A stretch of DNA of 44,166 nt from a virus: positions 1 to 44,166 of the IMG/VR virus record IMGVR_UViG_3300047546_000731. One strand, 5' to 3'. Shown one piece after another: positions 39,525 to 42,529 of this stretch; positions within the stretch are counted from its first letter, which is position 1; every line of letters starts with the position of its first letter. Position numbers and translations under genes: made by a program. The notes beneath the pieces were generated by a model. It searched no databases and was not told the origin of the DNA. It saw nothing but the letters and a program-made list of their open reading frames with translations.

Positions 39525-40604
39525 TTATGGGAGACCTTGCTCACGCAAGATAGAAAGAGGAGTAATGCGAATGAGCTGGCCATACTCCTCTGTCTGTTCT
39601 ATGTATATCATACGATCCACCGACACACCGGAGTCATACAGTGCTAACCTTGCCGGGCCGAGAATATCAGCCAATACTTCCCGTGGGAGCATAGCGATTA
39701 ATTCATCCCTAGAAAGGTCGGTCGGCACTGCGCCACCACGAACACCAGCATAATCCATCCATGTAGCCGATATAGGCACAAGCATGCACCTACACCGTGG
39801 ATGTGATTCAAAATCATCCGTTGTTGCGTAGATCTTGCCATGTAGCGCCAAGCATCCCACGCATGTCTTATTATCAATGACTGCGACACGTCGATATCCA
39901 CGAACAATGTTTGGGTTTAGCCTATTGATCCGCTGCACAACGCTACGTGAAGTTTCCATAATCTCTGTCGTTGATATATTCTCAGCGTAGCTATCAATGA
40001 CATCAATCGCTTCGTTTACATCGCGTATAAAGTCTTCCCTGGTTACATCTGGATTCGATGCATTCTCAGTCAGCCTAACAATATAGCGAGTAAATGTATC
40101 TGTTGACGTCTGTCTTACTAAGTCACTGATGCGTGTACCGCCAAAGCTAAACCCAGTGTTGAATTCTTTCTTCTCTGGAGTGCGAATCTTTGGCTTCATG
40201 ACACGCGCTGGCTTTGCGCCCATGTATGCAACGATTACAGGAGGATAGAACATCAATGTGGCAGATATGGCAGCATCCTGCGCCGCTTCTACGTCATCCT
40301 CTACGGATTCAGCGTATCTGTCCTGCTTCTCTGGATCCTGTAACAAGTCGATGATTTCTCTGTAGAACATCTGGACTTGAAGCTCCGTCACGTCTGGCTT
40401 GTGAGCCATAGCAAGAAGATCAATGATGCGGTCATACACCTCAACAAAAGTGTTACTCAACTTATCCTTGGCTTGCAGTAAGACGCTGTCTATTTCGTCA
40501 CGGTAGTAACCGAGAGCGCCATTGACGTAGTTGTAGGTTTCCTTTGTGCTGATACGCTCGCAGCAACCATCACCGCAGATGTAAGACATCCACTTATTGT
40601 CCAT
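39525..40604 (-). CDS. SPP1 gp7 / Mu F-like minor head protein, 359 aa
   Basis: Start ATG 40604 with AAGGAG. A long helical middle (RYAESVEDDVEAAQDAAISA; TRYIVRLTENASNPDVTRED) is followed by the gp7/Mu-F C-terminal motif: VAVIDNKTCVGCLALHGKIY, FESHPRCRCMLVPIS, with the characteristic Cys pairs and HPRCRC. Usually encoded directly after the portal gene; here it is about 8 kb away with its own terminator, so head genes are split. Confidence 0.78.
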   Translation of the reverse strand: MDNKWMSYICGDGCCERISTKETYNYVNGALGYYRDEIDSVLLQAKDKLSNTFVEVYDRIIDLLAMAHKPDVTELQVQMFYREIIDLLQDPEKQDRYAESVEDDVEAAQDAAISATLMFYPPVIVAYMGAKPARVMKPKIRTPEKKEFNTGFSFGGTRISDLVRQTSTDTFTRYIVRLTENASNPDVTREDFIRDVNEAIDVIDSYAENISTTEIMETSRSVVQRINRLNPNIVRGYRRVAVIDNKTCVGCLALHGKIYATTDDFESHPRCRCMLVPISATWMDYAGVRGGAVPTDLSRDELIAMLPREVLADILGPARLALYDSGVSVDRMIYIEQTEEYGQLIRITPLSILREQGLP

Positions 40605-40617
40605 AAAAACATTCTCC

Positions 40618-40647
40618 TTGCTATACAACCACCACTTGTTATAGAAT
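40618..40647 (+). promoter_or_regulatory. Promoter of the Tad2-like operon
   Basis: TTGCTA (40618-40623), 18 bases, TAGAAT (40642-40647) on the plus strand, 43 bases before ATG 40691. It overlaps the 5' leader of the leftward gp7-like gene, so the two transcripts diverge from a shared 85-base region. Confidence 0.5.
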
Positions 40648-40690
40648 AGTGTAACGCATTTTGATGCTACCACGGGGAATAGTGAGGCAT

Positions 40691-40906
40691 ATGTCGAACA
40701 AGAAACAAGGTTTTACATGGGCGCTTGTCGAGTTAATGAAGGGAAACCCGGTTACTCGGTTTGAAGCTCGTTGGTTATTGCAGATGGTAGAGAAATCCAT
40801 CATTCGTTACCGCATTGACGGCGCTGGTAACCGTGTATTTGAAGGCCATGCAACGCTTTCATCTGCTGACCTTCTTGCCAATGATTGGACAGATTACGAA
40901 GCATGA
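40691..40906 (+). CDS. Tad2-like (DUF2829-type) protein 1, 71 aa
   Basis: ATG 40691 with GTGAGG just upstream. N-terminus GFTWALVELMKGNPVTRFEA and C-terminus SSADLLANDWTDY follow the DUF2829 frame: F-x-x-A-L-x-x-L-x-x-G-x-x-V-x-R near the start and D-L-x-x-x-D-W at the end. DUF2829 includes Tad2, a sponge that sequesters the Thoeris signal molecule. The usual G-W after the Arg is weaker here (ARW). First gene of a fully coupled operon. Confidence 0.65.
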   Translation: MSNKKQGFTWALVELMKGNPVTRFEARWLLQMVEKSIIRYRIDGAGNRVFEGHATLSSADLLANDWTDYEA

Positions 40907-41121
40907 CATTTGCACAGGCATATCCACGGTTATTTGAAGGCCGTGGGATCAGGCGCCAAGCATGGGAGCCAGGGATGGTTGTGCGTTTATCAGCAATTAA
41001 CGCAGATCATCTAGTCATGCATTATGTGGGTGGTAACCGTTCGGTGTTCTGTCCAGCTGCATCTGACTTATACGATAGGCAATTACAACAACTTAGGGAC
41101 GACTGGGAGGTAGTGTTATGA
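40903..41121 (+). CDS. Tad2-like (DUF2829-type) protein 2, 72 aa
   Basis: ATGA overlap at 40903. Best member of the set: MTFAQAYPRLFEGRGIRRQA then WEPGMVVRL, ending LRDDWEVVL. It matches the DUF2829 opening (F-x-x-A-x-x-x-L-x-x-G-x-x-I-x-R-x-x-W) and the terminal D-W-E. Short length is normal for the family. Signal sequestration in the cytoplasm is inferred from the family; the ligand is unknown. Confidence 0.75.
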   Translation: MTFAQAYPRLFEGRGIRRQAWEPGMVVRLSAINADHLVMHYVGGNRSVFCPAASDLYDRQLQQLRDDWEVVL

Positions 41122-41420
41122 CACACATAACTGTAAAAGACAACGGATTTGACTTTCCTGACCATTGGATAGAAGTATACGAAGTTTGCGCTGACAATGG
41201 GTACGGTGCGAAGATTGCGCAATATGAGCAAGTTGCCATTGGTGCAGTCGTGCAGGAAATGCGCAACGTAAAGCATGGCACGATCAAACCAGAAAAGCAT
41301 CATCAACAAGTGTTGGATATGGTCAAAGAATTGATCGAGACGACGGATGTAGACGAATGGCTTCAAGAGCTTACTGAAATCTTGACGGACTTCAACTACG
41401 AGTTGGAGTACGAAGACTAA
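41118..41420 (+). CDS. Acidic hypothetical protein in the Tad2-like operon, 100 aa
   Basis: ATGA overlap upstream, TAATG downstream. About one residue in four is Asp or Glu, concentrated in the C-half (LIETTDVDEWLQELTEILTD then FNYELEYED); Lys/Arg are few. No family recognised. Its place inside an apparent anti-defence operon makes an immunity-related or DNA-mimic role worth testing, by context only. Confidence 0.65.
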   Translation: MTHITVKDNGFDFPDHWIEVYEVCADNGYGAKIAQYEQVAIGAVVQEMRNVKHGTIKPEKHHQQVLDMVKELIETTDVDEWLQELTEILTDFNYELEYED

Positions 41421-41818
41421 TGGACAAGCGCAAGAAGCTCAGCGACACAGACATCAAGAAGATTCATCGCCTGTTGAAACAAGGTGTCAAAGGCGAAGCG
41501 ATCATGCAGCTTATGGGCATCAGTAGCACACATTTCTACAGAATCCAACAAGCGTATCGCAATGGCGAAGTCAACTTGAAGCGTACATCGCTTCATAGCA
41601 TTTCACACTTTGTTGCATCTGGACTACCATTCAAGCGCATCGCATGGAAAAACCACCTCTACTATTACTATGACACTGAACAATCCTGGTTCGTAAAGCA
41701 TAGGTGCATGTTTGGCAAGAGCAATGATTACGAAGTCATTGAATACACTCTCAATCTAAGCTTGCAAGACTTGCTTGCCAAGGATTGGGTTGCGCTTACA
41801 TGGGAGTCAGTACGATGA
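41420..41818 (+). CDS. HTH domain fused to a Tad2-like domain, 132 aa
   Basis: Residues 5-48 form a small HTH of the resolvase/homeodomain-like kind (KLSDTDIKKIHRLLKQGVKG, EAIMQLMGISSTHFYRIQQA). Residues 61-130 repeat the DUF2829 layout: SISHFVASGLPFKRIAWKNH, LYYYYD, then LSLQDLLAKDWVALTWE. I know of no described protein with this pairing, so a ligand-sensing regulator is a possible reading. Coupled on both sides. Confidence 0.65.
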   Translation: MDKRKKLSDTDIKKIHRLLKQGVKGEAIMQLMGISSTHFYRIQQAYRNGEVNLKRTSLHSISHFVASGLPFKRIAWKNHLYYYYDTEQSWFVKHRCMFGKSNDYEVIEYTLNLSLQDLLAKDWVALTWESVR

Positions 41819-42009
41819 CAGGTGTAGATGCACTGATCGCATTGCGTGAAGGTAAAGCCATAAGGCGATCAATATGGCTGAAAGACATGGTAATCCGTGT
41901 CATTGACAATGAGCTGTCATGGGAACGCCATAAACATAGATGGCCATGCAGAGAACACAACTGCAGTATACAGAACATGTTGCACGATGATTGGGAGGTA
42001 GTGAAATGA
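41815..42009 (+). CDS. Tad2-like (DUF2829-type) protein 4, 64 aa
   Basis: MTGVDALIALREGKAIRRSI then WLKDMVIRVID, ending MLHDDWEVVK. The G-K-x-I-R-R-x-x-W opening and D-D-W-E-V-V end closely parallel protein 2, while the middle (WERHKHRWPCREHNC) is different and carries two Cys. ATGA overlaps on both ends. Confidence 0.75.
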   Translation: MTGVDALIALREGKAIRRSIWLKDMVIRVIDNELSWERHKHRWPCREHNCSIQNMLHDDWEVVK

Positions 42010-42224
42010 AATTCAGTGAAGTGGTCGAGGCACTTATGATGGGTAAGCGTATACGTAAGATTAGCTGGGATACACATCATGCGTACGTTATTTATGAAAA
42101 GGAATACAACACATTTGACTTTTACATGATGTCAGATGGAGAAGTTTACAACTTACAGTCGTACACAACGCTTGATCTGACACCTAGGGATTTGGTATCC
42201 ACTGATTGGGAAATATTGGAATGA
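42006..42224 (+). CDS. Tad2-like (DUF2829-type) protein 5, 72 aa
   Basis: MKFSEVVEALMMGKRIRKIS then WDTHHAYVIYE, ending LTPRDLVSTDWEILE. It follows the DUF2829 frame (F-x-x-x-x-x-A-L-x-x-G-K-x-I-R-x-x-x-W; D-L-x-x-x-D-W-E) with an aromatic-rich middle (YNTFDFYMMSDGEVYNLQSY). Highly divergent from its paralogues except at these ends. Confidence 0.75.
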   Translation: MKFSEVVEALMMGKRIRKISWDTHHAYVIYEKEYNTFDFYMMSDGEVYNLQSYTTLDLTPRDLVSTDWEILE

Positions 42225-42529
42225 CAGTACATACATACAAAATCAACATGGTAGGCACGGTTGGCTTAACAGAACAATATGACGGATTAGGAGAAGCATA
42301 CGATCACAACGTATGGGATATGGACTGCATTCATGACATGCACATTTTTGACCTACTGCTTGAGCAGCTCAATATGGCTGAGGATGACTCCATCTTGTGG
42401 TTTGATAGTACAAAACCAGGTGATCCAAAGCAATGGACAATGGCTTCTTGGAACGGAACCTTTAAAGCTGTAGCACGATTGGTTACCGATGAAGAAATAG
42501 CAGAAGCAGAATCCAAAGACAAAGAGTGA
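42221..42529 (+). CDS. Acidic hypothetical protein at the end of the Tad2-like operon, 102 aa
   Basis: ATGA overlap at 42221. Strongly acidic: YDGLGEAYDHNVWDMDCIHD, LNMAEDDSILWFDSTKPGDP, ending VTDEEIAEAESKDKE, with few basic residues. It lacks the Tad2 frame. No family recognised; a DNA-mimic or other anti-immunity role is only suggested by charge and neighbours. Confidence 0.65.
   Translation: MTVHTYKINMVGTVGLTEQYDGLGEAYDHNVWDMDCIHDMHIFDLLLEQLNMAEDDSILWFDSTKPGDPKQWTMASWNGTFKAVARLVTDEEIAEAESKDKE

Follow-up and report, generated by a model that had tools for sequence, protein, structure and literature searches.

A phage operon of five diverged Tad2-like genes, a candidate modular counter-defense cassette

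Results

In this work, we analyzed the virus record IMGVR_UViG_3300047546_000731, a 44-kb contig of an uncultivated tailed phage whose entire 44,166 nucleotides are here called the window, and we found that it appears to encode, in a phage accessory operon, five Tad2-fold proteins of ancient divergence, including one fused to a helix-turn-helix (HTH) domain. The chances that this operon of Tad2-fold binders serves as a modular counter-defense cassette, with targets that differ from member to member, seem to us about even. The window also encodes a capsid protein, a Mu-F-like head protein, terminase, ERF recombinase and a Mu Gam-like protein, together with ThyX, dUTPase, and C5 and N6/N4 DNA methylases. 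The array genes (40691-42224, + strand) lie between two genes of the opposite strand, the Mu-F-like gene and an N6/N4 methylase gene. No anti-defense gene was identified among the neighbors of the array with the families searched, and no host or prophage relative was found among GTDB genome contigs.

A preliminary description made from the sequence had placed five Tad2-like (DUF2829) genes in one translationally coupled operon. All five are present and are called m1 (40691), m2 (40903), m3 (41420), m4 (41815), and m5 (42006). The coupling was borne out, in that all six junctions overlap, but the operon comprises seven genes, two of which (41118-41420 and 42221-42529) are not Tad2-like. The overlaps measure 1-4 bases, with ATGA at five junctions (m1-m2, m2-41118, m3-m4, m4-m5, and m5-42221) and TAATG at one (41118-m3). 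Its parts are as follows, with L numbers denoting viral loci compared with the window.

40600..40675, + strand: upstream intergenic region, putative promoter; 76 bp, 96-97% identity in L006, L013, and L014
40691..40906, + strand: m1, Tad2-like, 71 aa; weakest Pfam match (15.4 bits), with support from a relatives-only HMM and profile-profile comparison
40903..41121, + strand: m2, Tad2-like, 72 aa; 30.5 bits; orthologs in L006, L013, and L014
41106..41111, + strand: Shine-Dalgarno GGAGGT for the 41118 gene, within the terminal W-E-V codons of m2
41118..41420, + strand: conserved operon protein, 100 aa; no domain recognized; L006 ortholog 82% identical
41420..41818, + strand: m3, HTH (aa 1-57) plus Tad2-like domain (approximately aa 60-126); HTH_23, PF11195, AlphaFold, and Foldseek
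41815..42009, + strand: m4, Tad2-like, 64 aa, variable slot; 28.3 bits
41994..41999, + strand: Shine-Dalgarno GGAGGT for m5, within the terminal W-E-V codons of m4
42006..42224, + strand: m5, Tad2-like, 72 aa; 32.5 bits; AlphaFold and Foldseek; orthologs at six other loci
42221..42529, + strand: last operon gene, 102 aa; ATGA overlap with m5; no domain recognized

When Pfam, NCBIfam, PADLOC, and PHROG were searched, the 41118 protein gave no notable match and the 42221 protein no family match; for the array itself, PADLOC and NCBIfam yielded nothing useful. Membership of the five genes in the Tad2-like family PF11195 (formerly DUF2829; Pfam gathering cut-off, 25 bits) was assessed in three ways. 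First, a PF11195 search of the whole record gave exactly five matches, which coincide with the five genes described earlier: 42006 (E = 1.6e-8), 40903 (1.9e-7), and 41824 (3.6e-6), plus two sub-threshold places at 41615 (4.1e-4) and 40850 (0.033). Three of the five proteins (m5, m2, and m4) score above the Pfam cut-off, while m3 (17.7 bits; 16-18) and m1 fall below it. Second, a family HMM built from relatives' proteins only, with no window sequences, was run against every stop-to-stop ORF of the window with 40 or more codons, 520 in total. The array genes filled the first five ranks (5.6e-24, 9.6e-19, 2e-14, 7.2e-12, and 5.2e-8, of which the last two belong to m1 and m4, respectively), and the next ORF had an E value of 0.015. 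Since this HMM includes orthologs of m1, m2, m3, and m5 but none of m4, the m4 figure is an independent value. Third, a profile of m1 orthologs aligned with the array-family profile over 64 columns (probability 96%, E = 2e-9), the two having no sequences in common. The assignment of all five genes to the family was thus upheld, and the profile search that had been proposed as a check found matches for all members rather than missing most of them. The PF11195 record search and the relatives-only ranking rule out a chance resemblance of motifs. The opening motif on which the genes had originally been grouped, A-L/x-x-L-x-x-G-x-x-[VI]-x-R-x-x-W, fared less well: it is exact in m2 and m4 only, with two additional residues before the W in m1, F for V/I in m3, and K for R in m5.

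Structure prediction, the other check proposed earlier, was run for m5 and m3. An AlphaFold2 model of m5 from an 18-sequence alignment had a mean pLDDT of 90.1, and its first 12 Foldseek matches in the PDB were all Tad2 chains (probability 1.00, TM by query 0.52-0.68), the thirteenth being an odorant-binding protein at a probability of 0.30; the Foldseek E values were modest (best, 0.003), as is to be expected of a protein with 72 residues. Among matches of the m5 model in BFVD, several are labeled 'Thoeris anti-defense 2-like'. The m3 model (pLDDT 88.5) likewise returned Tad2 chains as its first 11 matches (probability 0.96-1.00), followed by unrelated regulators at low probability. In structural alignments, identity between window members and Tad2 structures is 11-21%. 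As modeled, then, both members have the Tad2 fold, and neither has a fold unlike it.

The scaffold is largely retained and the canonical pocket motif is not. We took the ligand contacts of Tad2 from a review, in which the gcADPR pocket is described as consisting of the beta1-beta2 and beta3-beta4 loops, strand beta4, the beta4-alpha3 loop, and helix alpha3, with an insertion between beta2 and beta5 that accommodates cyclic dinucleotides (PMC12043709). In our reference set of 64 canonical viral Tad2s, the columns of R-E-G-W-N-G-K-G-M and of W-x-x-S-x-x-D-x-L-A-x-D-W are 92-100% conserved, and in the m5 model the former segment lies in the beta1-beta2 loop. All five window proteins keep the scaffold residues G14, W22, D83, and W84, and some keep R19, S75, D78, L80, and A81. 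The W-N-G-K-G-M loop motif is lost from all five (N-G-K-G-M is gone as a motif), and W72, the invariant W before S-x-x-D, is missing from four. Their domains span 64-73 aa vs. approximately 88 aa in canonical Tad2s, being 15-25 residues shorter with most of the long middle insertion gone; the shortening is certain, but the residue equivalences in the middle of the domain are not. Conserved positions cluster in the scaffold, and the divergence lies mostly in the loops lining the canonical pocket. None of the five carries the pocket motif of Tad2 proper, the anti-Thoeris sponge, and we rejected a canonical gcADPR sponge for that reason. With both the pocket-loop motif and the long insertion lost, the known Tad2 ligands cannot be assumed for these proteins; they are built on the Tad2 scaffold, yet classing them as Tad2 sponges is not warranted. 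Array members also score only 15-33 bits against PF11195 vs. 78-102 for canonical Tad2s, suggesting that the function of the array may have shifted. The earlier proposal, of sponges with diversified pockets that could block several signal-based immune systems at once, is thus supported in part: it survives as to the fold, in the models of m3 and m5, but not as to the canonical loop.

What such proteins might bind can be approached from their family. The experimentally assigned roles that we found are the sequestering of gcADPR, hisADPR, and cyclic dinucleotides (PMC12043709, PMC13299392, PMC12657218), plus the disputed AcrIIA7. Ligands differ among known Tad2s, with gcADPR for SPO1 Tad2, His-ADPR for MoTad2, and cGG for SptTad2 (8wjd), indicating that the scaffold tolerates changed specificity. 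Alternatively, the loss of canonical ligand-loop motifs from all five proteins could mean that the fold serves as a protein-binding scaffold, each member directly inhibiting a different host protein in the manner of AcrIIA7 and capturing no nucleotide. PF11195 does include AcrIIA7, in which DUF2829 has been reported (PMC6739104), and 9kzr and 8kbi ('Inhibitor of Type II CRISPR-Cas system') were matched in our PDB profile search. However, AcrIIA7 activity is disputed (PMC13131331), the Tad2s of described function in the literature that we found bind nucleotides, and a changed ligand would yield loop divergence equally well; we consider direct protein inhibition unlikely.

The age and maintenance of the array were examined in related phages. 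L006, L013, and L014 each carry orthologs of m1, m2, the 41118 gene, m3, and m5, arranged as in the window, and near-identical copies of those in L006 are present in L007 and L008. Identity is approximately 20% among the paralogs vs. 60-79% for most orthologs, which upholds the original view of the genes as diverged and indicates that the divergence is old; a recent tandem duplication was rejected on the same figures. Between the window and its relatives, the Tad2-like genes show pN of 0.11-0.34 and pS of 0.51-0.83, a sign of purifying selection, and since coding differences are mostly synonymous, the genes are evidently maintained as proteins. The m4 slot is empty in L006 and is taken up by another Tad2-like gene in L013, whereas L014 instead has an extra one after m5. 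These slot-4 differences point to a turnover of content, as expected of an arms-race cassette. Searches of viral contigs with m4 alone found no relative, and neither a search with m2 alone nor an alignment-based scan for relatives was productive. Further afield, the L016 array, which adjoins what we take, from sequence alone, to be a DnaB-like helicase gene, comprises m5, the Tad2 domain of m3 with no HTH attached, and an m1-like gene whose start and end are more canonical; in L009/L010, the HTH-Tad2 gene is present and the other members are absent. A common C-terminal tail (D-H-[IV]-V-D-x-N-K-[KE]-V-like) was seen on differing Tad2-like paralogs, in many cases the final one of an array (L006:6389-6646, L010:6001-6426, L013:6001-6255, L014:6216-6452, L016:6365-6610, L017:5714-5977, and L019:5719-5982), as if modules were inserted ahead of a fixed tail.

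Two starts in the window have their ribosome sites inside the preceding gene, where the terminal W-E-V codons (TGG GAG GTN) spell GGAGGT six bases 5' of the next ATG. Similar W-E-V-embedded Shine-Dalgarno sites were observed in L006, L013, L014, L016, L017, and L019. Across the arrays, coupled W-E termini use GAG 12 times and GAA 3 times, vs. 10 and 24 for other W-E dipeptides encoded by these contigs (p = 0.0016); when orthologs are collapsed, these hand-collected counts become 7 vs. 3 (p = 0.03). It is suggestive, and only that, of each array member supplying the ribosome site of the next gene, which would ease the addition of modules. Coupling would also keep stoichiometry, and another possibility is that the paralogs co-assemble into one hetero-oligomer, with combinatorial pockets or as a single complex, and not as five independent sponges. 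Overlaps at all junctions, several Shine-Dalgarno sites within preceding frames, and the ordered block of m1, m2, the 41118 gene, m3, and m5 that the window shares with L006, L013, and L014 would suit such a complex, as would the tetrameric structure of Tad2, whose pockets span protomers (PMC12043709). On the other hand, m3 stands alone in L009/L010, m5 has other partners in L016, L017, and L019, and paralogs that are approximately 20% identical make shared interfaces uncertain. Co-assembly seems to us quite unlikely.

The third member differs from the others in its N-terminal HTH (HTH_23, E = 6e-5, just under the cut-off). Between the window and L006, the HTH is 95% identical and the attached Tad2 domain 52%; between the window and L013/L014, both domains are 40-47% identical, and pN of the HTH ranges from 0.02 to 0.39. 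The HTH-coding segment (41420-41590) is 47% identical to L013, and the adjacent upstream 41118 gene approximately 80% identical in both L006 and L013. Judging from these comparisons, domain exchange or replacement, or relaxed change, may possibly have occurred in m3. The noncoding region at 40600-40675, which separates the operon from the divergent Mu-F-like gene, has 96-97% identity to its counterparts in L006, L013, and L014, vs. approximately 76% for the m1 protein. Being better conserved than the adjoining genes, it is likely a promoter or control site. It contains a sigma-70-like TTGCTA-18-TAGAAT (40618-40647), in a promoter scan that showed no excess over shuffles. The HTH-Tad2 protein would be the natural candidate for binding to this region.

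The fusion suggests regulation or sensing, and the whole cassette might be mainly regulatory, its Tad2-fold domains sensing small molecules, with the HTH-Tad2 protein repressing or activating transcription and the other members in a modulating role. Besides the fusion, the conservation of the HTH relative to its Tad2 domain in L006, the conserved 76-bp upstream region, and weak matches of three members to PHROG 643, labeled 'transcriptional regulator' (E = 0.003-0.008), would agree with this. Yet an HTH occurs in one of the five members, the m3-type Tad2 domain lacks it in L016, the conserved 76-bp element is absent beside the HTH-Tad2 gene in L009/L010, and the PHROG label is weak. We find a mainly regulatory role quite unlikely. 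An Aca-like autoregulator is an HTH protein that lies within the anti-defense operon it represses and binds the promoter of that operon; here an HTH inside the operon and a conserved promoter region were seen, and the element is missing at the second HTH-Tad2 locus (L009/L010). A long shot is that m3 acts as a phage sensor, its Tad2 domain binding a defense signal and the HTH then altering transcription of the array, such that counter-defense is deployed on alarm.

Copy number was compared in 50 whole viral records encoding relatives of a canonical Tad2, counting PF11195 matches at E <= 0.001. All 50 had exactly one match, at 78-102 bits. The window has four matches at this threshold and five in all, and other array phages have 3-12, short and divergent. 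The claim that phages usually carry one copy, and that the number here is unusual, is in line with these counts, which contrast two types and are no census, since the canonical and array samples were drawn with different queries; short divergent copies also occur singly, as in the L114 record. Given kin with 3-12 matches, we rejected the idea that arrays are a quirk of one contig. The larger phages L017/L018, L019, and L113 have 9-12 PF11195 matches, most of them in one run. Upstream of their arrays, we noted proteins of approximately 190-290 aa with at least two Tad2-like domains (L017:3820-4515, L019:3879-4739, and L113:2707-3276). Among isolated phages, the Lactobacillus phages Iacchus (L100) and LP65 (L101) have three to four clustered partial PF11195 matches, while tblastn searches of isolated phages with m3 and one array member were unproductive.

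Discussion

The preliminary description of this operon is extended here by the N-terminal HTH of m3, by the turnover between relatives, and by the recurrence of arrays (up to 12 matches). We favor counter-defense because of what is known of the family's functions and because the scaffold is conserved while the loops diverge and the genes turn over. In a counter-defense cassette, coupled translation would make the small Tad2-fold proteins together, presumably early in infection, and each member, with its own binding loops, may capture a different host immune molecule and so blunt host defense. By analogy with known Tad2s, the likeliest targets would be nucleotide-type signals. Regulation of the cassette, or of other genes of the phage, is the probable role of the HTH-fused member.

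Canonical Tad2 is a single gene in the phages surveyed, and recurrent arrays would mean that a phage can carry a whole set of binders that share one small scaffold. If so, each array member could point to a host immune molecule, perhaps an undescribed one, and the lost pocket motif leaves the question of ligand directly testable with proteins of 70 residues. The HTH fusion raises the possibility that phages sense immune signals, and the cultured Lactobacillus phages LP65 and Iacchus, with comparable clusters, offer an entry point for laboratory work. In a 2019 study, DUF2829 proteins were found to adjoin AcrIIA7 homologs, themselves DUF2829 proteins (PMC6739104). Our searches of the open-access literature, with subscription papers and preprints mostly outside their reach, turned up no account of multi-copy Tad2-like arrays or HTH-Tad2 fusions.

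Several known systems resemble the window array in part. Like Tad2 (SPO1 Gp34.65, Myroides MoTad2, and SptTad2), its members are small phage proteins, the two that were modeled share the fold by Foldseek (probability 0.96-1.00), and the members largely retain the opening alpha-helix, the G-x-x-V-x-R-x-x-W-type start, and the D-x-L-A-x-D-W end. Unlike Tad2, they have shorter domains without the W-N-G-K-G-M loop and most of the insertion, array phages carry three to twelve copies vs. one, and one window member is fused to an HTH. AcrIIA7/HgmTad2 (PDB 8kbi and 9kzr) belongs to the same Pfam family and was matched by the array profile, but its chains are longer (104 and 158 aa) and no tandem arrays of it are described in the literature that we found. 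The DUF2829 clusters of Iacchus and LP65 similarly comprise three to four short divergent Tad2-like ORFs in one operon-like stretch; these are annotated as hypothetical proteins, match mostly in the N-terminal half, and have no clear orthology to the window genes. The arrays of the IMG/VR contigs L013, L014, L016-L019, and L113 share some orthologs of m1, m2, m3, and m5 with the window, as well as ATGA coupling and embedded Shine-Dalgarno sites, but differ from it in membership and size (up to 12) and, in L016-L019 and L113, also in neighborhood.
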